From the IMG/VR virus record IMGVR_UViG_3300042465_005696, positions 1 to 24,158 of that record: a DNA stretch of 24,158 bases. One strand, given 5' to 3'. The notes under the pieces are model-generated. The model searched no databases and was not told where the DNA came from. It saw nothing but the letters and a program-made list of their open reading frames with translations. The DNA is from a virus. Position numbers and translations under genes: made by a program. Shown piece after piece: positions 1,983 through 22,243 of this stretch (position 1 is its first letter; each line of letters opens with the position of its first letter).

Positions 1983-4900
1983 ATGCCCACATTCTCCCAA
2001 ATCTATTCCCAATTCAACAACGCGAAGGCTCAGAACCTCATTGGTCCTGATGAGTCTCTAGCAGACTATGCAAAGAAAGCGTTGTCAGTAACCGGTGATC
2101 CGAGCTATCAGTCCGTTGCTGAAGGTGGCACGGTGGGGAACTTTGTTCGATCCCGCTCGGCTGATTTGACTAATTTTGTCAACTCGGGTCCGGTGGATGA
2201 ATGGCTAGGACAAGGGACGCAGTGGATTGGAGATAAGTTTGGAATCAACCCTGAGACTTCGAGAAGCGTTGGTGAGTCGCTGCCGAGAATGGCTGTTGAC
2301 TTTCTTCCTATGGCCGTCGGTGCAGCGATGACCAGTGGTGCGTCGTTGGTGCCTTCGGTTGTTGGTATGGCAGCGACGAGTGGACTCAGCGCTGCGAACG
2401 CCTATGAGCAATCTGGGCAGGTTAGTGATGCTCTGATCGGCGGTGCTGCTCCTTATGTTGGTGGGAAGTTGTCAGAAATCGGTGGTCGAGCTGCTCTGAA
2501 TCTGGTGCCTAAGTCACAGATTCTTCAACGTATGGGATTCACAGGTGGGACTAAGGTTGCTGGGCAAGCACTCACTGCTGCCGAGCAAGCTGCTTTGATG
2601 ACTGAGCAAGGTTTGTCACAATTCGTCGCCAAGGGTGCAACCAAGAGCTTTACAAAACTAGATAAACCTCTCGACAAAGCTTTGCACTATCTAGGCGGTG
2701 AAGCTCTGGCGAATGTTGGATTCACTGGTTTGGATGTCTTGCAACAGGGCACTGATGCTGTGTTTAATCGAGACTATCTATTTGCTAACCTTGTCTCCAA
2801 CGTGCCGTTTGCCGCTGCTGATATGGCTGGGTCGTTTAGGAGTCGCCAGCTTGGTGAATCTCAGATCAACCTTCCCGAAGCTGCTCCGATTTATCGCACT
2901 CCAGGCGAAGAGAAAGCGGTTTATGCAGCAGCTTTGTTTAAAGACCTTGAATCTCCAGAAGCAGTTGAGTCTGCTCGGAAACGTTATGGTCTTGACATAG
3001 TTGATATGTCAATTAAAACAGAAGGGCTTAAAGCCGCCCTTAATGCTAAAGAATCCGTCCTGCGCACTGCAGAGCTTGACTTTGTGACAAAATGGAACGA
3101 CTATGTCTCTAAGACTCCTTTGGCTCAGGACGCTGGATTCACTCCAATCCAGCGCGGTGGAGCTTTTGGTAGAGACTTTGTCGGCTTGGATAAAGTTATT
3201 GGTAACTCCGAGCTACCAATGGAAGCAAAGGCTTTGGTGGATGAATTTAAGCAACAGAGGAGTTCCCTGAGGGCTAGTTATTCAAAGACTGTGGACAAGC
3301 TGGCTGATCCGATTTCGATTAAGGAAAGTTTGCCGAAGGCTATTGAAGATTTGAATCTGGACGAATTTCTCAAGACTCCAATCGAGCAACGGGATTATGC
3401 TAAAGCCCTGGAGAAAACCTTTTTATCTCTTGACGGTGTCGATCTAATCCGTGACATCCATCGCCGGGAAGCTGGGCTGGAACCACTGCGCCCAGAGCTT
3501 TATCAAGAATATGTTGATTTGTATTCTGGCAAACCTGCGTCGTTCACACCGGATAAACGTATTGAACTGACTGTTGCTGCGAGCTTGGCGCGAGGTGCTG
3601 TGCCAAAGTTTGAGAAGGCGAAGAGGAAGGTTGAAGAAGCTCAGGAGGAAGGGAAGACTCAGGAGGAAACTGTTCAGGAAGTTGTCCAGGCTTTTGAGGA
3701 AGATAATAAAGTTGCTGGGCAGTTTAAGCAACCGGTGATTTTTGACGTTGCGGATACACAGTCTGGACTGGTTGTGCCTGGGGAAACTGAAGGTGGTGTG
3801 GAACCGTTGCTGGGGCAGAAGCCAGTAGTGGCTGAACAGCCTGCTGAGGTTTCTGTGGTTAAGGAACCAACTTTGATGGATCGGATCAACGAAGAGATCG
3901 CGACGGTTGGTAAAGGAAACCCTGCGTTTATTAAAGCCTGGACACCGGAGAAGCTTTCTGCGGTTGAGAAGTTTATTCAAACTCGGGATGAGAGTTTGTT
4001 GGATGTGCTGTCAAAGCCTCAGAAGAATCGTGTCTATGATGTGCTGAAGAGGTTTGACCCGGTGCAGCAAAAGGAGAGTGATCTGTTGGATCAGAAAGCT
4101 CAGGCGAGGACAAAGATTCTTAACACCCTGCCAAAACATGAAGTCACTGCTGATGAGCTTGAACTTCGCGTGCTGGATGATAATCGTATTGAGCAGGAGA
4201 GGGTCCCTCTGGAAGGTGATCTTTTTCCAGACACACAATGGGCCCGTGTGGTTGATCAGAATAAGAAAGAACATCTGATCCCACTACCTGAAGGCGAACT
4301 CCAGCGTGTTGAGGCTTTTGCGAAAGGGATTCTGGCTAAACTCGTTCCGGCTGAAGAACTCTCCGCGCGGAGTGAAGAGTTGATTAACCTGGCAAAGATG
4401 TTTAACAATCCTGAGGTTGCTTATGCTGAGCTTGGGAAGTTGGTTAGAGGTCAGTCGGATGCTCAGTTTGCGGATGGTTATTATCTCCGGCCCGCAGTGC
4501 AGCTTAACGGTGTTATCAAGGAAGGTCGTCTCCATGTCGACGCCTGGCAGCAACATCTAAAGAAACCATTCTCTCAGTGGAACAACGAGCCAGCTTTCAA
4601 GAACTCCAAAGAAAAAGAAGGTTTCATGACGCCTGATGGTTTCTTGACTCGTGAACAAGCTAAGATTGAGTTTGAAAAGCGCGGTGGGAAGTTGAAGATG
4701 TCTCCAGGGGAAGCTCCGAGGGATTGGCTGGATACAAGTGATGTTAGTGACTTCTTTGCCCAGGGAACGGGTAAAGTCTACGGCGCTGCGTCTTACGACA
4801 AGATGCAAATTCTCATCAACTCAAAAGCTTTCCAGAGCAAATCTCCAGCCGAGCAACTCAAATTCATCTGGTCTCATGAGAATTCCCATATCGCTTTCCG

Positions 4901-7900
4901 CAAAGCTTTGGAAGGAGCGTATGGAGCAAAAGCTAAAACCCTAGCCGATGCATCTCTTTCCTGGGTAAATTCCGCTGACCCACAGGCGAGGAAGAATGTT
5001 GAAGATGTGGTTAGAGAGTTGCATCTTGATCCTGAACTAGCTCAACTGGATGGAATTCGTGATGTGCTGAACAACCCTGATCCTCAGGAGTGGCTGGCCA
5101 ATGTCTGGGCGATGTATGCCCTGGGCACGCTTAAGCCGAATAATTCTAAAGCTGCATTCTCAATGCTGCCAAGGCCGATTCGTGACTTCTTTGACTGGGC
5201 GGTTAGCGGGATTCAGAATCTGGCAAAGGGCGCTCAGATGTGGGCGAGACTGTCTGGCAAAGACTATAAGGCTGCCAAGGATATGAAGGAATTGATGAAC
5301 ACCGTTCGTCGATCTTTTCGTCAGGCTGAGTGGAATGCTGCTCAGGCGGAGAAGTTTTTGGATATTGAACCGAGTTCTATGATCGAACGCGGAAATGAAT
5401 TCGCGTTTGCTCAGAGCCAGGAGAATGATCTCGACCGCATGGGTCAGGTGGGTGAACAGAAGGTGACTGACTGGAGGACTTTTAAGCGGCAGATGGGCAA
5501 TGTCTGGAACAAGGCAATTCAGCCTATTCACACACTGGCAAATGCTCATAAGGAGTTTGTCGAGCCAGTGCTTGCGGTGATGAATGCGCCGTTGGATACG
5601 GACAATGCTATTGGAGATGTCTTTAAAGTTGTCGTTGGTGAGCTGGATGGAAGAGATAAAGTTCAGATCACGAACAAAGCCTTTGAACGAGTTCAGAAGT
5701 CTGAGAGCTTACTTAAGCTGGCTAATGCAATTATGATCCGCGCAGAGGTTAAGAACCAGCGGATGATTAAGCTGAAGGACAATGGGGACATGGTTGAAGT
5801 TGTGAACTTTGATGCACTGTCACCGGAGCAGAGGGGACAATTTCAACAGTTTAGCCCTGAGGCTCAGCAGGCTTTGGCGAGTTATATCGCTCAGGCTGAA
5901 CGAGCAAACATTATGACTCAAAAGAAAAACCTTGAGTCGACTTGGAGTGAGATTACGAGCAACCTTGCTTTGCTCTTGACTTCTAAGTCTTCGTTTAATA
6001 AAGCTGACTTTAAGAAAGCTCCGGCGATTGCTGAGGGTATGTTGAAAGATCTCCAGCTTGGAGATACTGAAGGAGCCGTGAGCAAGCTGGTTGGACTGGA
6101 TGAATTCGACAGAGCTAAACTAATGGAGCAGACTCAACAGCTTTATGCGGAGTATGCAAAGTTGGAGAAGTTCTACAATGAACGTCCGACTTATATGTCG
6201 TTTAAGCGGTTTGGTGATATTCGTCAGAGAATTAGCAAACCAGGTGAGGACGATGATGTCGTTGACGCGGATAGTGAGCTTGAATTACAGGAGAAACTGA
6301 AACCTTACCTGGCTGACGGTTGGACTCAGACTAATGCTCGAATCACTAAGAAGGAGAGGAAGAATCAGGAATACCGGGTGAACTCTGATTTGCTTAAATT
6401 GATGAACGACCGGGAGAAGTTGTTTAAGTCGATGATTCAGGATTCTGGCACAATCAGCCAGGAGGATAAGAACATGATCCTTAACTATCCTTCATCTTCT
6501 GATGCTATGATTAGTGAGATCAATAGTCGGGAGCTTTACAAACCAACGACTGGGAGGAAACTCACCGGTGACTTGGCTCGTTACGACTGGTATGAGCAGT
6601 TTGTGAATTATACTCCAGCGGCTATTTCCTCAGCCCAACGTCGAGCACTTAGTGCTAAGGTTAATTTCTGGATGCAAGACCCAGCGTTGTTAAACAAGAA
6701 GCTGCAGAAGGATCAGTTTATGGCACTGTATGAACAAAGTCGCAATCCTGATCCTGAGTGGGTGAGGAAGGTTAATAAGCTGAACGCTGTTTGGCATATT
6801 GGCTGGAATCTTCCTGGGCATATTGCGGAGTTGTTTCAGCCTATGGTGGCGATGCTGCCAGAGCTTCAGGCTAAAGGGGAGAGTCTGCCAGGAGCGTTGA
6901 AGCTGATTCAAAAGGCTGAGAGAGATGTCGTGAAGATGCATGGGTATCGACTTAAGGATAAACTCTTCAAGCCTGATAAAGCCGAGATCACTGTCAACGG
7001 TGAGACTTTTGAAGGTCTTGCAGCGATGTGGTTGAAAGCCAATGGAACATCCAAGGAGACTGTCGATGAAGCCCGCATGCTGCATGAAAAACGTGGGAGA
7101 ATTCAAAAAGCTCCGCTGAGTGAGATTCGTGACTTCACTGGTCAGAATCAAATCCGCTTGGAAGATTCGATGGTTGGTAGGACGATGAGCAAACTGAAAG
7201 ATGCGGTGACTCGACCGTTTCATACTTATGCAGATGCGGCGATGGGATTTTACTCGAACTTCACCCAGCACAATGGTGTGGTGACGTTGATTACGTCCTA
7301 TCGTAAGTTTAGAAAACAAGGTCTGTCCCATGAAGAAGCTATGCAGAAAGCTGAGTTGTTTGATCTTACGGTTAATAACTCAGGTGGTAGGCTTGAACGC
7401 TCGGAGCTTTATGGAAAACTTGGCAGCACAGGACCGTTGGTCTTGGGACTGTCGAGCTATACTCGTGGCCGGTTTAGTCAACTCGCTACATTCTATCGTC
7501 ATGGATTCAACTCGAAACAGTTTGAAGGTAAGCTGTCGAACGCTGAGATTGCTAATGCAAAGAAGGCATTTCAGACTATGATCTTGGCTCAAGTTGGTGC
7601 GGCTGGGTTGCTGGGCTTACCGTTTGTCGGAGCTGGGATTGCTCTTATGGAAGAGCTTCTTGGTGAGGATATTAAAGGTAAAATGCTCACAGCTCTTGAT
7701 GAAGTCACTAATGATCCTACTCTATCCCGCACATTCTCTCACGGGATGATGTCCGCTATGGCTGAGAGCTTTGGTGTGCCAGCGGATTTGCATTCGAGGT
7801 TTGCACTTAGTTCTTTCCTCGGGACGAATTCCTACGACGGCATCAGTGCCAAGTCATTTATGGGACCCTCGGTTGCTATGCTTGACTCGATGTTCAACCT

Positions 7901-8534
7901 TGGCAGCGAACTAGCTAAAGGTGAGAGCCTGGAGAAAGCCCTGACGGTTGCTGGCCCTGGTGGGGTTAAGCGACTCGCTGAAGCCATCAGCGAAGACTTC
8001 CAACGGGATAATCCAGAGGCTAATCTCGCCAGCTCGATGCTTGGGTTTAGATCGAGTCAAATGGTGAAGAGGAAAGAATGGGATCAGATTACCCGCAAGC
8101 AGGAGCTGGAGGGAAGGAGAGACTTGGAAAAATCCGCGATGGAGATTTCAAAGAAGATGGAAATCAATCCGAGACTAGCTAGGCAGCAGTTGTTGATCGA
8201 AGCTGATAAGCTGGTTCCACAGGGATTGGATCGACAAGGGATTGTTAATCAACGTCAGCAAAATATCAAAGATTTGATTCAGAAGGTTTCCTTACTGCAA
8301 GCTGACAAAGTCGGACCTCAAGACCCTCGTCGTCAGGTCTCTGGCCGAGTTGCTCCGCTGGCGAGTCAAACCGCTCAGGCTATGGGGGTGCAAATGCAAA
8401 ACCCGATGGAACTTGCTCGCGCGATGGCACAACAAAAAACGCGCTCCCAACTTGGTGCGACGAGTAGTCAACGGCCAGTCAGGAACGCGATGTTGCAGGA
8501 GATGCAGTGGAGTAGGAATCCGTGGGAGTTTTAG
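1983..8534 (+). CDS. Giant polyvalent/ejection-type virion protein with HExxH metallopeptidase motif, 2183 aa
   Basis: This gene fills a quarter of the window. Hydrophobic, Ala/Gly-rich segments lie around residues 100-170, and a strong apolar stretch lies near 1862-1896 (ILAQVGAAGLLGLPFVGAGI). Both could touch or cross a membrane during DNA ejection. Residues 965-969 read HENSH, a zincin HExxH signature, in the context FIWSHENSHIAF. About 67 residues on, DPQEWLANVWAMY supplies E1036 in a setting typical of a third zinc ligand. Glu/Lys-rich coiled regions lie near 540-570. Large multi-domain phage proteins with embedded zincins are known among polyvalent proteins injected with DNA, and T7 gp16 is a functional analogue for ejection. 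The peptidase may cut host proteins or locally open the wall. The last gene of the late block, it ends with TAG overlapping the stop of the opposing gene. No SD precedes the ATG. Confidence 0.85.
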   Translation: MPTFSQIYSQFNNAKAQNLIGPDESLADYAKKALSVTGDPSYQSVAEGGTVGNFVRSRSADLTNFVNSGPVDEWLGQGTQWIGDKFGINPETSRSVGESLPRMAVDFLPMAVGAAMTSGASLVPSVVGMAATSGLSAANAYEQSGQVSDALIGGAAPYVGGKLSEIGGRAALNLVPKSQILQRMGFTGGTKVAGQALTAAEQAALMTEQGLSQFVAKGATKSFTKLDKPLDKALHYLGGEALANVGFTGLDVLQQGTDAVFNRDYLFANLVSNVPFAAADMAGSFRSRQLGESQINLPEAAPIYRTPGEEKAVYAAALFKDLESPEAVESARKRYGLDIVDMSIKTEGLKAALNAKESVLRTAELDFVTKWNDYVSKTPLAQDAGFTPIQRGGAFGRDFVGLDKVIGNSELPMEAKALVDEFKQQRSSLRASYSKTVDKLADPISIKESLPKAIEDLNLDEFLKTPIEQRDYAKALEKTFLSLDGVDLIRDIHRREAGLEPLRPELYQEYVDLYSGKPASFTPDKRIELTVAASLARGAVPKFEKAKRKVEEAQEEGKTQEETVQEVVQAFEEDNKVAGQFKQPVIFDVADTQSGLVVPGETEGGVEPLLGQKPVVAEQPAEVSVVKEPTLMDRINEEIATVGKGNPAFIKAWTPEKLSAVEKFIQTRDESLLDVLSKPQKNRVYDVLKRFDPVQQKESDLLDQKAQARTKILNTLPKHEVTADELELRVLDDNRIEQERVPLEGDLFPDTQWARVVDQNKKEHLIPLPEGELQRVEAFAKGILAKLVPAEELSARSEELINLAKMFNNPEVAYAELGKLVRGQSDAQFADGYYLRPAVQLNGVIKEGRLHVDAWQQHLKKPFSQWNNEPAFKNSKEKEGFMTPDGFLTREQAKIEFEKRGGKLKMSPGEAPRDWLDTSDVSDFFAQGTGKVYGAASYDKMQILINSKAFQSKSPAEQLKFIWSHENSHIAFRKALEGAYGAKAKTLADASLSWVNSADPQARKNVEDVVRELHLDPELAQLDGIRDVLNNPDPQEWLANVWAMYALGTLKPNNSKAAFSMLPRPIRDFFDWAVSGIQNLAKGAQMWARLSGKDYKAAKDMKELMNTVRRSFRQAEWNAAQAEKFLDIEPSSMIERGNEFAFAQSQENDLDRMGQVGEQKVTDWRTFKRQMGNVWNKAIQPIHTLANAHKEFVEPVLAVMNAPLDTDNAIGDVFKVVVGELDGRDKVQITNKAFERVQKSESLLKLANAIMIRAEVKNQRMIKLKDNGDMVEVVNFDALSPEQRGQFQQFSPEAQQALASYIAQAERANIMTQKKNLESTWSEITSNLALLLTSKSSFNKADFKKAPAIAEGMLKDLQLGDTEGAVSKLVGLDEFDRAKLMEQTQQLYAEYAKLEKFYNERPTYMSFKRFGDIRQRISKPGEDDDVVDADSELELQEKLKPYLADGWTQTNARITKKERKNQEYRVNSDLLKLMNDREKLFKSMIQDSGTISQEDKNMILNYPSSSDAMISEINSRELYKPTTGRKLTGDLARYDWYEQFVNYTPAAISSAQRRALSAKVNFWMQDPALLNKKLQKDQFMALYEQSRNPDPEWVRKVNKLNAVWHIGWNLPGHIAELFQPMVAMLPELQAKGESLPGALKLIQKAERDVVKMHGYRLKDKLFKPDKAEITVNGETFEGLAAMWLKANGTSKETVDEARMLHEKRGRIQKAPLSEIRDFTGQNQIRLEDSMVGRTMSKLKDAVTRPFHTYADAAMGFYSNFTQHNGVVTLITSYRKFRKQGLSHEEAMQKAELFDLTVNNSGGRLERSELYGKLGSTGPLVLGLSSYTRGRFSQLATFYRHGFNSKQFEGKLSNAEIANAKKAFQTMILAQVGAAGLLGLPFVGAGIALMEELLGEDIKGKMLTALDEVTNDPTLSRTFSHGMMSAMAESFGVPADLHSRFALSSFLGTNSYDGISAKSFMGPSVAMLDSMFNLGSELAKGESLEKALTVAGPGGVKRLAEAISEDFQRDNPEANLASSMLGFRSSQMVKRKEWDQITRKQELEGRRDLEKSAMEISKKMEINPRLARQQLLIEADKLVPQGLDRQGIVNQRQQNIKDLIQKVSLLQADKVGPQDPRRQVSGRVAPLASQTAQAMGVQMQNPMELARAMAQQKTRSQLGATSSQRPVRNAMLQEMQWSRNPWEF

Positions 8535-13966: not shown

Positions 13967-14166
13967 TTTTGTAATCTTTCAAGCTCTCGGTTTAGATACC
14001 ATTGTGCTTTTTGCAAATCTTCGAGCGGTGATGCTGTCTTTAATCCCGCGCGCCAGATATATTTAACAGCATTGCCTAGATTAAAGTTAAAGTGTTCAGT
14101 GATTTGAATACATTCAACTTTTGAAGGGTGAGAACGATAGTGTGCAGGGTTAATTTTATCACTCAT
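13963..14166 (-). CDS. DUF3310 protein (T7 gp1.7-like nucleotide metabolism family), 67 aa
   Basis: The whole protein matches the DUF3310 pattern as I recall it: an N-terminal INPAHYRSHP, then VECIQITEHFNFNLGNAVKY, IWRAGLKT and a final LEDLQKAQWYLNRE helix. The family includes phage T7 gp1.7, reported as a nucleotide kinase, and often sits by phage replication genes. Here it lies between the methyltransferase fusion and the polymerase, with ATGA overlaps on both sides, fitting a role in dNTP supply. At 67 residues it contains only the core domain, so enzyme activity is not certain. Confidence 0.85.
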   Translation of the reverse strand: MSDKINPAHYRSHPSKVECIQITEHFNFNLGNAVKYIWRAGLKTASPLEDLQKAQWYLNRELERLQK

Positions 14167-15638
14167 ACAAATTGCACATCCCCTCCAAACATGGTTTTGT
14201 AAGTGTCTTTGACACGGTTCTGCAACTCAGGGAATCGAGCTTGGTCGATTTCACAAGCGATGATTTTACATCCTTTGAGGATGGACGCTCGGACGATAGA
14301 GCCTCCACCAGCGAATGGATCGAGCACTGTCATACCGGGTAAGTAGACCGGGTCAAGGAGCATTTTATCAATGAATTCAAGTGGTTTGGCAAAGGGGTTG
14401 GATTGGAGCTTTTTATCAGGCATACCATCGACGATCATATGGCAGAGGTTCATGGGCTTGGAGAGTCTTGGTGAACCTTTCTTCATAACCATCACTGGTT
14501 CATAAGACTTTGTCGGATTAATATGAGCCGCTTGGTTTTTACATGAGTGAGGTTTAAGCCAGAGGATATTCCAATCTAGCACAGAAAAACCAACCTCACG
14601 CCCCCAGGTGGCTAGTTTTTCTTGATGCTGCTGGGCAAAGAAGAAGAAGAGATATTTGTCGTCTTTAAGAACACGATAAGCTCCTTCGAGAAAAGGTTTC
14701 ATCTGCTCGACATTTTGATCAACCTTGTGGGTGGACTTCATTTGTTCAACCCCGTGCATGTCTTCGAGCAGAGCCATGTCGATACCGTAGGGAATGTCGG
14801 TGATGATGACATCGACGGACCTAGGTGCGAGATGTTCTTTCATCAATTCCACACAGTCCATGTTGAACAGTCTGTCGGAAATCTTGATTGTCTTCATTTC
14901 ACGAATCTGTTCTGGGGAAGCCGTGATTACCGAGGGGAGCGGGGAGTTCTGGCCGAGCTGAATGGAGATAATGCCGGTGGGTTTAACAGCTTTGGTGGGC
15001 TGTGGGATGACGAGGAGGTCGCCAGAGAGCTTGGCTTTGGCAGTCATTGCGGCTTGTTCCTTGCGAGCGAGGACGACTTGCTTGGCTTGGTCGAAGGACT
15101 TGGCGTCCCAGATTTCTCTGTCATTGGCCTTGAGCAGGCGGGAGATGACGAGACAATCGGCGACATAGGAATGGGAGGATTTGACAAGGTGGCCGGTTGC
15201 TCGCAGTCCCCATTGTTCTTTCCGCTCGGCGGCCATTTTAGATTCGCGTTCGTGGACGGCTGTGATACCAAGGGCGATGTCTTGCCAGGTCATTTTACGG
15301 CGACGCATGTTCTCGTCGAGTTCGATCATGAGTTCCATTGCGCGCTCGATCTTGAGCCTACGGACAATGGGGACTTCAGCAGCGTCCCAGTTTTTAGACT
15401 TGAGGAGCTTGTAGGCTTCGAGACGGCATTCGCCAGCGATGAGTTCGTTAGCTTCGTTGAGGACGATTGGAGAGATTGGGCCGACGAGGATGATCGAGTC
15501 GGCTATTTGCTGAGCGTTCTGGGCGATTTCTTTTGGATCGCGGCGGAGACGTTCGGAGCGGTTGATGATGATCTGGTCGAGGGGGAAGTAGTCAACACCG
15601 TCGAGACGCTTGAGTTTTTGAATTTTATTGTCGGACAT
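14163..15638 (-). CDS. ParB/sulfiredoxin-like domain fused to an N6/N4 DNA methyltransferase, 491 aa
   Basis: Residues 15-115 form a ParB/Srx-like module: PLDQI, PISPIVLNEANELIAGECR (with G69-E70-C71-R72 at the nucleotide-binding 'GxRR' site) and a following helix. A charged linker region leads to the methyltransferase at about 250-480. Motif IV is TDIPYG at 280-285, the KPLEF pre-motif is at 418-422, and the AdoMet-binding motif I is DPFAGGGS at 440-447. Motif IV before motif I is the order of beta-class amino-methyltransferases. These fusions are common in phages and methylate adenine or cytosine amino groups, protecting phage DNA or marking it. Motif IV is DIPY rather than DPPY. There is no partner endonuclease nearby. 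No SD precedes the start; an inverted-repeat spacer does. Confidence 0.88.
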   Translation of the reverse strand: MSDNKIQKLKRLDGVDYFPLDQIIINRSERLRRDPKEIAQNAQQIADSIILVGPISPIVLNEANELIAGECRLEAYKLLKSKNWDAAEVPIVRRLKIERAMELMIELDENMRRRKMTWQDIALGITAVHERESKMAAERKEQWGLRATGHLVKSSHSYVADCLVISRLLKANDREIWDAKSFDQAKQVVLARKEQAAMTAKAKLSGDLLVIPQPTKAVKPTGIISIQLGQNSPLPSVITASPEQIREMKTIKISDRLFNMDCVELMKEHLAPRSVDVIITDIPYGIDMALLEDMHGVEQMKSTHKVDQNVEQMKPFLEGAYRVLKDDKYLFFFFAQQHQEKLATWGREVGFSVLDWNILWLKPHSCKNQAAHINPTKSYEPVMVMKKGSPRLSKPMNLCHMIVDGMPDKKLQSNPFAKPLEFIDKMLLDPVYLPGMTVLDPFAGGGSIVRASILKGCKIIACEIDQARFPELQNRVKDTYKTMFGGDVQFV

Positions 15639-20264: not shown

Positions 20265-20534
20265 TTAGAATTTGAAGTCGAGGTTGGAGATCATCTTGTT
20301 GAAGCGCTCGTTGTTGGAGGCTTCGATTTCGGTGGATTCAGCGAGCGGGAGCTGGGACTTGGCAGCCTGCATGAAGTGGTAGAAGAGGGTAGCACAGATG
20401 GCATCGACCGAGCCGAAGGTTGAGAAGCGGAATTTGAAATCTTGGAAGTCTTGGGTGGAGGCGTCAAAGCAGATTTCTCGATTGCGGGTTTGAGCGAGCT
20501 TGTAAGGGGACTGAGGTTTTGGGTTTTCGTTCAT
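20265..20534 (-). CDS. Hypothetical protein, 89 aa
   Basis: The start at 20534 overlaps the stop of the preceding 167-aa gene as ATGA. The protein starts with a Pro/Gln-rich segment, has an aromatic stretch (DFQDFKFRFSTFGSVDAICA), then a helix (LFYHFMQAAKSQLPLAEST), and ends NLDFKF. No motif is recognised. A helix containing FYHFMQAA is suggestive of a small helical accessory protein. Nothing more can be said from sequence. Confidence 0.65.
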   Translation of the reverse strand: MNENPKPQSPYKLAQTRNREICFDASTQDFQDFKFRFSTFGSVDAICATLFYHFMQAAKSQLPLAESTEIEASNNERFNKMISNLDFKF

Positions 20535-21034
20535 AGTATTGTGAATGAACCATCGGGGTTAGGGATTAGTTCGACGTTGGGGTAGTGGTCGGGGAGAGTA
20601 GGTGGGACGGTGAAGTTGTGGATGGTTAGGGGGACGGGAAGATGGTCGAAGTTTTTAAGGTGGAGGACAGCGTGCAGGGTGGTGGGATTGGAGCAGTCGA
20701 TTGGTGGAATGGCGAGAGTGGGAGCGGACTCGGAGCCGATGGTTACTGAGCCACGAGGTGTGTGGGAACGACGAGGGCCGACGTAGATGGTTCCGTCTGG
20801 GTCTTCGGAGAAGACAAAGGCGCGCTGGAGGAGGAGAGCTTGGTCATGCGGGAGGATGGTGGAGAGGGTGGGGTTGGAGCAAAAGAGCCGGAGAGCTTTT
20901 TGGAGAGATTGACGGACGGTGGAGGGAGCTTTGCCGGAGCAATAGATTTTAGAGGGTTGAGGATAACGGGAGAAGATTTGCTGGATAGCAGGCTCCCAAG
21001 GGGTGAATAGGTGTTGGTTTGGGTGTTGGTGCAT
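20531..21034 (-). CDS. Hypothetical protein, 167 aa
   Basis: The N-terminus is polar (MHQHPNQHLFTPWEPAIQQI). A helical part follows with STVRQSLQKALRLF. The later two thirds are rich in Pro and Thr with beta-strand patterns (GTIYVGPRRSHTPRGSVTIG, VPLTIHNFTVPPTLP) and end NPDGSFTIL. No catalytic motif is visible and the family is not recognised. It is the first gene after the 550-bp island. Its ATG overlaps, on the opposite strand, a plus-strand ATG at 21033. The leader shows no SD. Confidence 0.65.
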   Translation of the reverse strand: MHQHPNQHLFTPWEPAIQQIFSRYPQPSKIYCSGKAPSTVRQSLQKALRLFCSNPTLSTILPHDQALLLQRAFVFSEDPDGTIYVGPRRSHTPRGSVTIGSESAPTLAIPPIDCSNPTTLHAVLHLKNFDHLPVPLTIHNFTVPPTLPDHYPNVELIPNPDGSFTIL

Positions 21035-21317
21035 GGGAAAGAGTGAAGTCTTGCAGGATTCTCACCTGCCGCCCCATTGGGAGTGGCTGCACGACATCTT
21101 TCAACCGGACGCTTACCGGCTCGAAGACTTCAAATTAATGCCCGTCGTTACAGTGACGGAGCCGAGGCTGGAAGGTTCGGGACTTTTTAACGAGCAAGAG
21201 CCTACAATTCGCTCGGAATGCAGCAAGACCTTAACGCAGTTACTGGCTCAATGGCTCACGGCTTTATTTGATACTGAAGTTAAGCTACTCCGTCCGTCCC
21301 TTTGTCCAGTGGGATAG
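21033..21317 (+). CDS. Doubtful plus-strand open frame in the island, 94 aa
   Basis: An ATG at 21033 opens 94 codons on the plus strand, against the direction of every neighbour. The start reads MGKSEVLQDSHLPPHWEWLH and the end reads LLRPSLCPVG. Its composition is fairly protein-like, but the same DNA is full of inverted repeats, there is no RBS, and the other plus frames nearby look equally protein-like further on. No family is recognised. It may be a small divergent gene, the remnant of one, or chance inside an RNA gene. It is recorded because nothing better is known for this DNA. Confidence 0.25.
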   Translation: MGKSEVLQDSHLPPHWEWLHDIFQPDAYRLEDFKLMPVVTVTEPRLEGSGLFNEQEPTIRSECSKTLTQLLAQWLTALFDTEVKLLRPSLCPVG

Positions 21318-21586
21318 GCAAGTCTCTGGCACCGACTGGTTACGGTGTCCTTGTTCGGCAAGGAGTTTGGTGAGGAGACCCTCAAATCAACACACTGGTC
21401 AGGTCGCTCACCAAGAAATTACCTATGAAGTCACCGCAAGCGGATATTACGTTCACAGCATCTTTGTCCGTGCCCTCACTGCAATGTGCTGATTTGAAAG
21501 TGGGTAGTTTAATGACTTGCCCAGGTCATTTGTTTTGAGGAAATCACTAGCGTAGTTTAAAACCCTACTGTTACCCTCAATTCAAA
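21035..21586. other. 550-bp island without confident gene; many inverted repeats, possible structured RNA
   Basis: No minus-strand frame of useful length exists here. Perfect or near-perfect stems are: 21044-21052 with 21124-21132 (9 bp, enclosing GCAGG/CCTGC at 21053-21069 and CCGG/CCGG at 21105-21119); 21142-21148 with 21153-21159; 21191-21195 with 21211-21215; 21328-21334 with 21343-21349 (7 bp, one G-U); 21349-21353 with 21359-21363; 21367-21374 with 21407-21414 (8 bp, with inner GACC/GGTC); and 21511-21518 with 21523-21530. The plus strand is C-rich over G here, the reverse of the flanks. A large structured phage RNA of the GOLLD or ROOL kind, or imported DNA, would fit. No known RNA family was recognised. 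Confidence 0.5.
21511..21536 (+). terminator. Possible plus-strand terminator closing the island
   Basis: AATGACTT (21511-21518) and AGGTCATT (21523-21530) can form an 8-bp stem with one G-U pair around a 4-base GCCC loop, followed by TGTTTT. The stem is AT-rich and the T-run is interrupted, so it is a weak candidate. If used, it would end a plus-strand transcript of about 500 bases that covers the inverted repeats of the island. Confidence 0.35.
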
Positions 21587-22243
21587 TTACACCAACCCAG
21601 CTGGAATCTCCAGCTTGCGACGCTTCTCGTCGATTTCCAGCGCGCGGGCAATGCCGTCTTCGGTAAAGCCGCCGAGGTTGTCGAAGTTGTAGCCTGGGTT
21701 GGAGGCAGACCACTTGGCCGCGAAGCCTTCGGCAGTAACTGGGTTGCCGTCGGAACCGAGTGCACCAGCTTCTGCCATAGCGAGGATTCGCTTGGCGAGA
21801 GAGTAGAACGCGGCATCTGGCTCGGCTTCTTCTTCTTCCTTGAGGACTTCAAAAGGAATAGTGTCGGCGACACGCTGGGCGAGGACGAGGTAATCGGTTT
21901 CGGAGATAGCCGGAGCGATGTAGTCGGTGTCTTCGGGGTTGCCGCGACCGTTCACGCAGAGCTTGATGTAGTCACCCTCGGTGATGAGGATGTCGACAGT
22001 GTCACCCGCGCGGTTTTTCTTCTGCTTGCCGGTGGATGGGATCGCGAGGCCAGTAGTGGCGACGAGTTCTTGGACTACGGCTTTGCGCTGCTTGTTATTC
22101 CAGCCTTGGTAGAGACAGTGTTTGATAGTGCAGTGCCGAACGTCGGCTGGATTGGACATGGCAATCAGGTCTTCCAGAGTGGCGGGAACCATGAGGGTGA
22201 CTTGTGCGCCGAGGGTTTTGTTTGTGTAAGGAACGAGGTTCAT
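21587..22243 (-). CDS. Hypothetical early protein, 218 aa
   Basis: The product starts MNLVPYTNKTLGAQVTLMVP. A first domain (to about residue 70) is helical with LEDLIAMSNPADV and several Cys/His residues (RHCTIKHCLYQGW). A glutamate run (EEEEAEPD) lies near residue 140, and the C-terminal part is Ala-rich and helical. No known motif is visible and the family is not recognised. An AC-rich, SD-less leader and a promoter-like spacer precede it, so it may be made early and in quantity. The structured island lies just downstream of its TAA. Confidence 0.75.
   Translation of the reverse strand: MNLVPYTNKTLGAQVTLMVPATLEDLIAMSNPADVRHCTIKHCLYQGWNNKQRKAVVQELVATTGLAIPSTGKQKKNRAGDTVDILITEGDYIKLCVNGRGNPEDTDYIAPAISETDYLVLAQRVADTIPFEVLKEEEEAEPDAAFYSLAKRILAMAEAGALGSDGNPVTAEGFAAKWSASNPGYNFDNLGGFTEDGIARALEIDEKRRKLEIPAGLV

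Follow-up and report, generated by a model that had tools for sequence, protein, structure and literature searches.

What does a phage encode in a stretch of 552 bases that has no gene on either strand? This question is raised by positions 21035-21586 of a viral DNA of 24,158 nucleotides (IMG/VR record IMGVR_UViG_3300042465_005696), the whole of which we refer to as the window. A preliminary description of this DNA had proposed that the gap specifies a structured RNA of about 500 nt on the plus strand, with foreign or host-derived DNA as the main alternative.

Coding content and composition of the gap

The absence of genes noted in the preliminary description held up on reanalysis. The longest minus-strand stop-to-stop frame lying wholly within the gap is 56 codons. 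On the plus strand there is a 94-aa frame (21033-21317) and an overlapping 74-aa ORF, and it is almost certain that these do not form a protein gene that explains the stretch. The 94-aa frame does stay open in the window, but it has no relative among viral contigs and nearly all frames of the homologues contain stops. In addition, the inner loop of the conserved module M1 (see below) ranges from 35 to 104 nt across phages (58, 94, 41, 35, 104, 38, and 96 nt), so that no frame is kept. With neither relatives nor a retained frame, a conserved plus-strand protein gene was rejected.

The gap is located where a series of minus-strand genes begins, and the flanking genes are co-directional with the RNA described here (Table 1). 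This series codes for an exonuclease, a Sak4-like annealing protein, a ParB/methyltransferase protein, DNA polymerase, ligase, and primase. Scans of the gap region for promoters and terminators gave nothing beyond chance. Elsewhere in the window, a 491-aa protein at 14163-15638 joins ParB-like and DNA methyltransferase domains (PHROG matches), and a single plus-strand open frame of 2183 codons occupies 1983-8534.

The gap contains 136 G and 136 C, giving a skew of 0.000 as compared with a median of 0.20 for the window, and some overlapping 552-base segments in the region are slightly negative (–0.04). The low skew reported earlier is therefore real, but it is flat rather than inverted. Nor does G exceed C everywhere else as had been stated, since equally low segments occur at about 551-1650. 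The excess of stems claimed for the gap was not seen in folding energies; relative to shuffled sequences, the plus strand showed no advantage (z –0.48) and the minus strand only a slight one (z –1.65). Because the skew is flat and the folding energy unremarkable, these statistical arguments are weak and the comparison between phages had to decide. It is this comparison of sequences, rather than energy, that reveals the structure of the RNA.

Table 1. Features of the gap and the genes on either side of it. Positions are those of the window.
Feature	Position	Strand	Sequence or pairing	Basis and remarks
218-aa gene	21587..22243	–		Directly 5' of the RNA; no PHROG match
M0, H-type pseudoknot	21501..21529	–	AUGAC-C-UGGG-CAA-GUCAU-UAAACUA-CCCA	Covariation; 5'-most module
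M1, 5' arm of 20-bp stem and conserved inner strand	21470..21501	–	CAGUGAGGGCAC	Pairing, folds
M1, 3' arm and conserved inner strand	21378..21411	–	GUGAGCGACCUGAC	34 nt
Two small spacer hairpins	21348-21365, 21330-21347	–		Folding only; sequence not conserved
M2, H-type pseudoknot	21292..21329	–	CCAG-AGACUUGCCUA-UCCC-A-CUGG-ACAAA-GGGA	Covariation
M0', possible second UUAAA pseudoknot	21181..21215	–		Upstream of M3; rank 2 of 60 in the window
M3, 31-nt block	21140..21170	–	CAGCCUCGGCUCCGUCACUGUAACGACGGGC; CAG/CUG and CCGUC/GACGG	Proposed H-type pseudoknot
Degenerate tRNA-like element, 88 nt	21044..21131	–	Acceptor GAAGUCU/AGACUUC	Scan and fold
T-arm of the tRNA-like element	21053-21069	–	GCAGG-UGAGAAU-CCUGC	
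167-aa gene	20531..21034	–		Downstream of the RNA; homologues in three related contigs, 47-57% identity

Conserved modules in related phages

Related contigs were identified by searching with the protein products of the flanking genes and with the polymerase. One conserved block used as the query in a DNA scan yielded further contigs, and the M3 block, used likewise, yielded six more in which M3 occurs in other genomic settings. In the alignment, the gap consisted of four strongly conserved blocks, with spacers among them that varied in length and could not be aligned. M1 is present in eight contigs, counting the window as one (two of the eight are identical over the stretch compared), and M3 is present in 12 contigs with one copy in each, of which L023 and L024 look nearly identical; the comparison of each module rests on few sequences. 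Matches to the M1 pattern in L010 and L013 were set aside as chance, being inside apparent coding genes and lacking the other modules. In every phage with M1, this module is preceded by a member of the 218-aa gene family, whose protein identities are 81, 67, 55, 41, 37, and (partial) 48%. Nucleotide identity in M1 and M3 is 94-100%, while identity of the adjacent 218-aa protein drops to as little as 37%. The stretch occupies the same position in several related phages, which rules out the alternative raised earlier, stray DNA of foreign or host origin.

Neither the window island nor M3 alone had a BLASTN match in 50,697 phage records, and the L014 region had three short, weak matches in the same records. 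Two annotated phages with distantly related polymerases (MW202489 and PP438425) carry no module. Rfam 15 returned nothing for the window at gathering or at E<=10 and nothing at gathering for 12 related loci, with weak sub-threshold matches in L014 that look like chance. We found no earlier description of this RNA in the open-licence literature, and one elsewhere is possible. Judged by these sequence searches, other uncultured phages have matching modules, but none of the catalogued RNA families or sequenced phage isolates does.

The two modules at the 5' end bear on structure and strand. In the four distinct sequences showing M0 (L012 and L015 were left out of this count), 95% of cells are paired in register as compared with 17-54% in slid controls, there are three compensatory pairs, and the score was reached by 1 of 500 shuffles. 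M0 was also the best pseudoknot at exactly the same place in five phages, ranking 0-1 of 60 shuffles. By eye, M0 is shifted in L012 and L015 seemingly has no stem 1. The hairpin at 21511-21536 does exist. It had been taken as the 3' terminator of a plus-strand RNA, whereas it corresponds to stem 1 of M0 and lies at the 5' end of an RNA on the minus strand. In M1, the 20-bp stem pairs on the minus strand in 140 of 140 cells from seven phages, all of which fold alike, and the 3' block is unchanged across the phages that have M1 except for one change in L014. Changes at the four variable sites of the stem always retain the pair via G-U. These sites pair in 28 of 28 cells on the minus strand versus 10 of 28 on the plus strand, and the plus-strand RNA of the preliminary description was rejected on this basis.

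Support for M2 comes from two compensatory pairs contributed by L021, where the first stem CCAG/CUGG of the window is replaced by ACGG/CCGU; the score was reached by 12 of 500 shuffles (sequence pattern AYTTGCNNNTCCCANNNNNNAAAGGGAC). The possible pseudoknot M0' ranks similarly in L002 (rank 1) and L014 (rank 0) and more weakly in L021 (rank 9). M3 (sequence pattern CAGCCTCGGCTNNNNNACTGNAACNNNNNGCA) differs by 0-1 positions across the 12 contigs, and we infer its pairing because the block is too invariant for a covariation test. A further module, M4 (GAGCAACCUGCUGACAAUGUGGUGGCUC), occurs in relatives and is not present in the window.

Near-invariance even at paired positions, together with one copy per contig, is what might be expected if M3 were conserved as DNA, for instance as an origin, packaging, or recombination site. 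For the locus as a whole we consider such a DNA-level site improbable, since the variation in M0, M1, and M2 retains RNA pairs, including G-U pairs that are sensible on one strand only. For M3 alone this reading could apply. Compared across phages at the level of sequence, M0, M1, M2, and M3 in this order are RNA-level structure of the minus strand.

The combination of modules differs between phages. On the RNA strand, the order is M0-M1-M2-M3 in the window, L002, and L008, and it extends to M0-M1-M2-M3-M4 followed by a tRNA or tRNA-like element in L009 and L014. Other contigs have M1-M4 (L012), M1-M4-M3 (L015), M3-M4 (L019), M3 and a weak M4 (L020), M2-M3 (L021), or M3 and a tRNA (L023). This bears on whether the modules are cis-acting elements located in the leader or between the genes of an early or replication mRNA, where pseudoknots would regulate the flanking genes at the level of translation, stability, or processing and the invariant loops would possibly bind a ligand or protein. 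We regard this as quite possible, if short of probable. Various combinations of M3 and M4 immediately precede genes for DNA polymerase, helicase, or exonuclease while the genes upstream of these modules are unrelated, and M3 is on the same strand as the adjacent genes at the loci examined. In L020, M3 starts about 6 nt past a stop codon and the gap that holds M3 and M4 is compact. However, the spacing between M3 and the following gene is not constant (about 38 nt to several hundred), the downstream genes differ, and in several phages this interval contains tRNAs or tRNA-like elements.

tRNA-like elements

The window RNA ends with a degenerate tRNA-like element for which neither ARAGORN nor Rfam made a call. 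Taking a cloverleaf, a canonical T-loop, and a 7-nt anticodon loop as the marks of a tRNA gene, this element is not one; its T-loop is UGAGAAU as compared with UUCRANY. In relatives, several elements are found downstream of M3 or M4, all of them on the strand of M3. L009 has a tRNA-Ala(UGC) called by ARAGORN. In L023 (318-463) and L024 (693-838), Rfam detected a tRNA (31.8 bits) in which an 83-nt insertion replaces the normal anticodon region; the insertion may be an intron, a long arm, or part of a tRNA-like RNA. L008 and L009 have in common a cloverleaf-like element with acceptor GACUCAG/CUGAGUC, T-loop UGCAAUU, and the same D-arm. The T-stem of this element shows compensatory change (GCCAG/CUGGC versus GCCGG/CCGGC) and there is no ordinary anticodon arm; in the L009 tRNA-like element (4783-4950) a helix of about 11 bp is in its place.

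The scan for such elements gave 11 hits in 258 kb versus 6 in one shuffled control. Single hits are therefore not significant, and the weight lies on position and on the homology between L008 and L009. The same scan found no tRNA-like element in L002, L015, or L021. A scan for an acceptor stem followed by ACC gave four loci as compared with a mean of 1.6 and a maximum of 6 in shuffled sequences, which is not clearly over chance, and we therefore claim tRNA-like elements only where an acceptor and a T-arm co-occur. Three other observations concern these regions. L014 has at 1817-1889 a tRNA-like sequence with a canonical T-loop, an encoded ACCA end, and no clear D-arm, for which ARAGORN makes no call. 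A block GGYAAGCCUCGACCUU(C)NAACAGGCCAACGACCGA lies downstream of the tRNA-like element in L014 (1982-2040), L023 (477-540), and L024, contigs that otherwise differ. The string CCAATTTC or close variants of it closely follow the last module or tRNA-like element and precede the next gene in L008, L012, L020, L021, L022, and L023.

A degenerate element in the window and tRNAs nearby in relatives could also be the remains of a tRNA gene array that is decaying and has no function of its own. As an account of the locus this is very unlikely. Blocks of 31-34 nt stay nearly identical while neighbouring proteins diverge, and compensatory pairs would not persist under decay. The idea is effectively excluded for M0-M3, though possible if restricted to the window's tRNA-like end.

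Discussion

Together, these comparisons indicate that the gap very probably specifies a conserved, structured minus-strand RNA that is modular, rich in pseudoknots, and shared by a set of uncultured phages. The preliminary description had anticipated about 500 nt for a structured RNA; the size found is about 490 nt. The compensatory changes, the 20-bp stem kept through G-U pairs, and the near-perfect blocks in unalignable spacers support such an RNA well. A conserved protein frame or missing covariation had been named in advance as grounds for refutation; the lack of the former and the presence of covariation favour an RNA. The evidence that we count for our explanation is the pairing in M0, M1, and M2, the conservation of M1 and M3, the lack of a conserved frame, the single copy of M3, and the downstream tRNAs and tRNA-like elements. 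Counting against it are the lack of covariation in M3, the weak z-scores for folding, the various combinations of modules, and L020, where a short intergenic gap is taken up by M3 and a weak M4, an arrangement that better suits cis elements than a single large RNA.

As to mechanism, we prefer an RNA that acts in trans and is released by tRNA-like punctuation, and we hold this at just under an even chance. The RNA would be transcribed together with the early genes, and host tRNA-processing enzymes would recognise the tRNA-like element on its 3' side, with RNase P acting at the 5' edge of the element and nucleases at its 3' side. This processing would free a defined RNA that folds into a compact body with multiple pseudoknots. 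The freed RNA might then act in trans during infection, either as a scaffold or through nearly invariant loops that bind a conserved host partner, in the manner suggested for GOLLD and ROOL. Release in this way is called into question by the degenerate state of the element in the window and by L002, L015, and L021, in which the scan found none. A bolder proposal places the RNA in a new class of large phage RNAs of modular build, with interchangeable pseudoknot modules and a tRNA-like end, that would act in trans on some conserved component of the host, perhaps the ribosome. We consider this possible but doubtful. The 3' arm of M1 is complementary to E. coli 23S rRNA at around 1603-1629, exceeding 99.9% of shuffles (p 0.0007, about 0.02 after 32 tests). 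This test was post hoc, E. coli may not be the host, the arm is itself held in the M1 stem, and 31 of 32 tests of similarity or complementarity between modules and E. coli rRNA were unremarkable; the match is only a lead.

Several known RNAs have features in common with the one described here. tmRNA combines several H-type pseudoknots with a tRNA-like domain, and in this it resembles the window RNA. By contrast, the tRNA-like element here closes on itself within 88 nt and does not join two RNA ends; neither ARAGORN nor Rfam called a tmRNA in the window and no tag reading frame was identified. HDV-like ribozymes form a nested double pseudoknot, whereas M2 and M3 would be simple H-type pseudoknots of about 31-38 nt, and Rfam had no ribozyme match in the window or in 12 related loci. 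Theta ribozymes, which are HDV-like, are nevertheless similar in being pseudoknotted phage RNA elements beside tRNAs (PMC10879173).

GOLLD is likewise phage-encoded and large, has several pseudoknots and no known function, and is often found near tRNA islands (PMC12286853). The window RNA is comparably placed, having a degenerate tRNA-like element of its own and, in L008, L009, and L023/L024, the downstream elements described above. It differs in matching no GOLLD covariance model in Rfam, in its length (often >800 nt in GOLLD), and in belonging to a family of short, nearly invariant modules that are mixed and matched between phages. ROOL is an RNA of phages and prophages with multiple pseudoknots, also often by tRNA islands (PMC12286853). 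Multiple pseudoknots are supported here by covariation for M0 and M2 and proposed for M0' and M3. ROOL differs from the window RNA, which has no Rfam ROOL match, has its conserved blocks set in unalignable spacers, and adjoins a tRNA-like element. The preliminary description had recognised neither RNA, in agreement with Rfam. Because the window RNA matches no Rfam model, we do not file it as a member of either family, though it may work in a similar way.

To our knowledge, few large ornate phage RNAs have been recognised and their functions are unknown. GOLLD and ROOL have recently been shown to form cages made only of RNA. If our explanation is true, the existence of an independent family whose short, nearly invariant modules can be swapped and whose end resembles a tRNA would mean that ornate RNAs are more widespread in phages, and its modules would be small enough for their structure, partners, and processing to be tested one by one.
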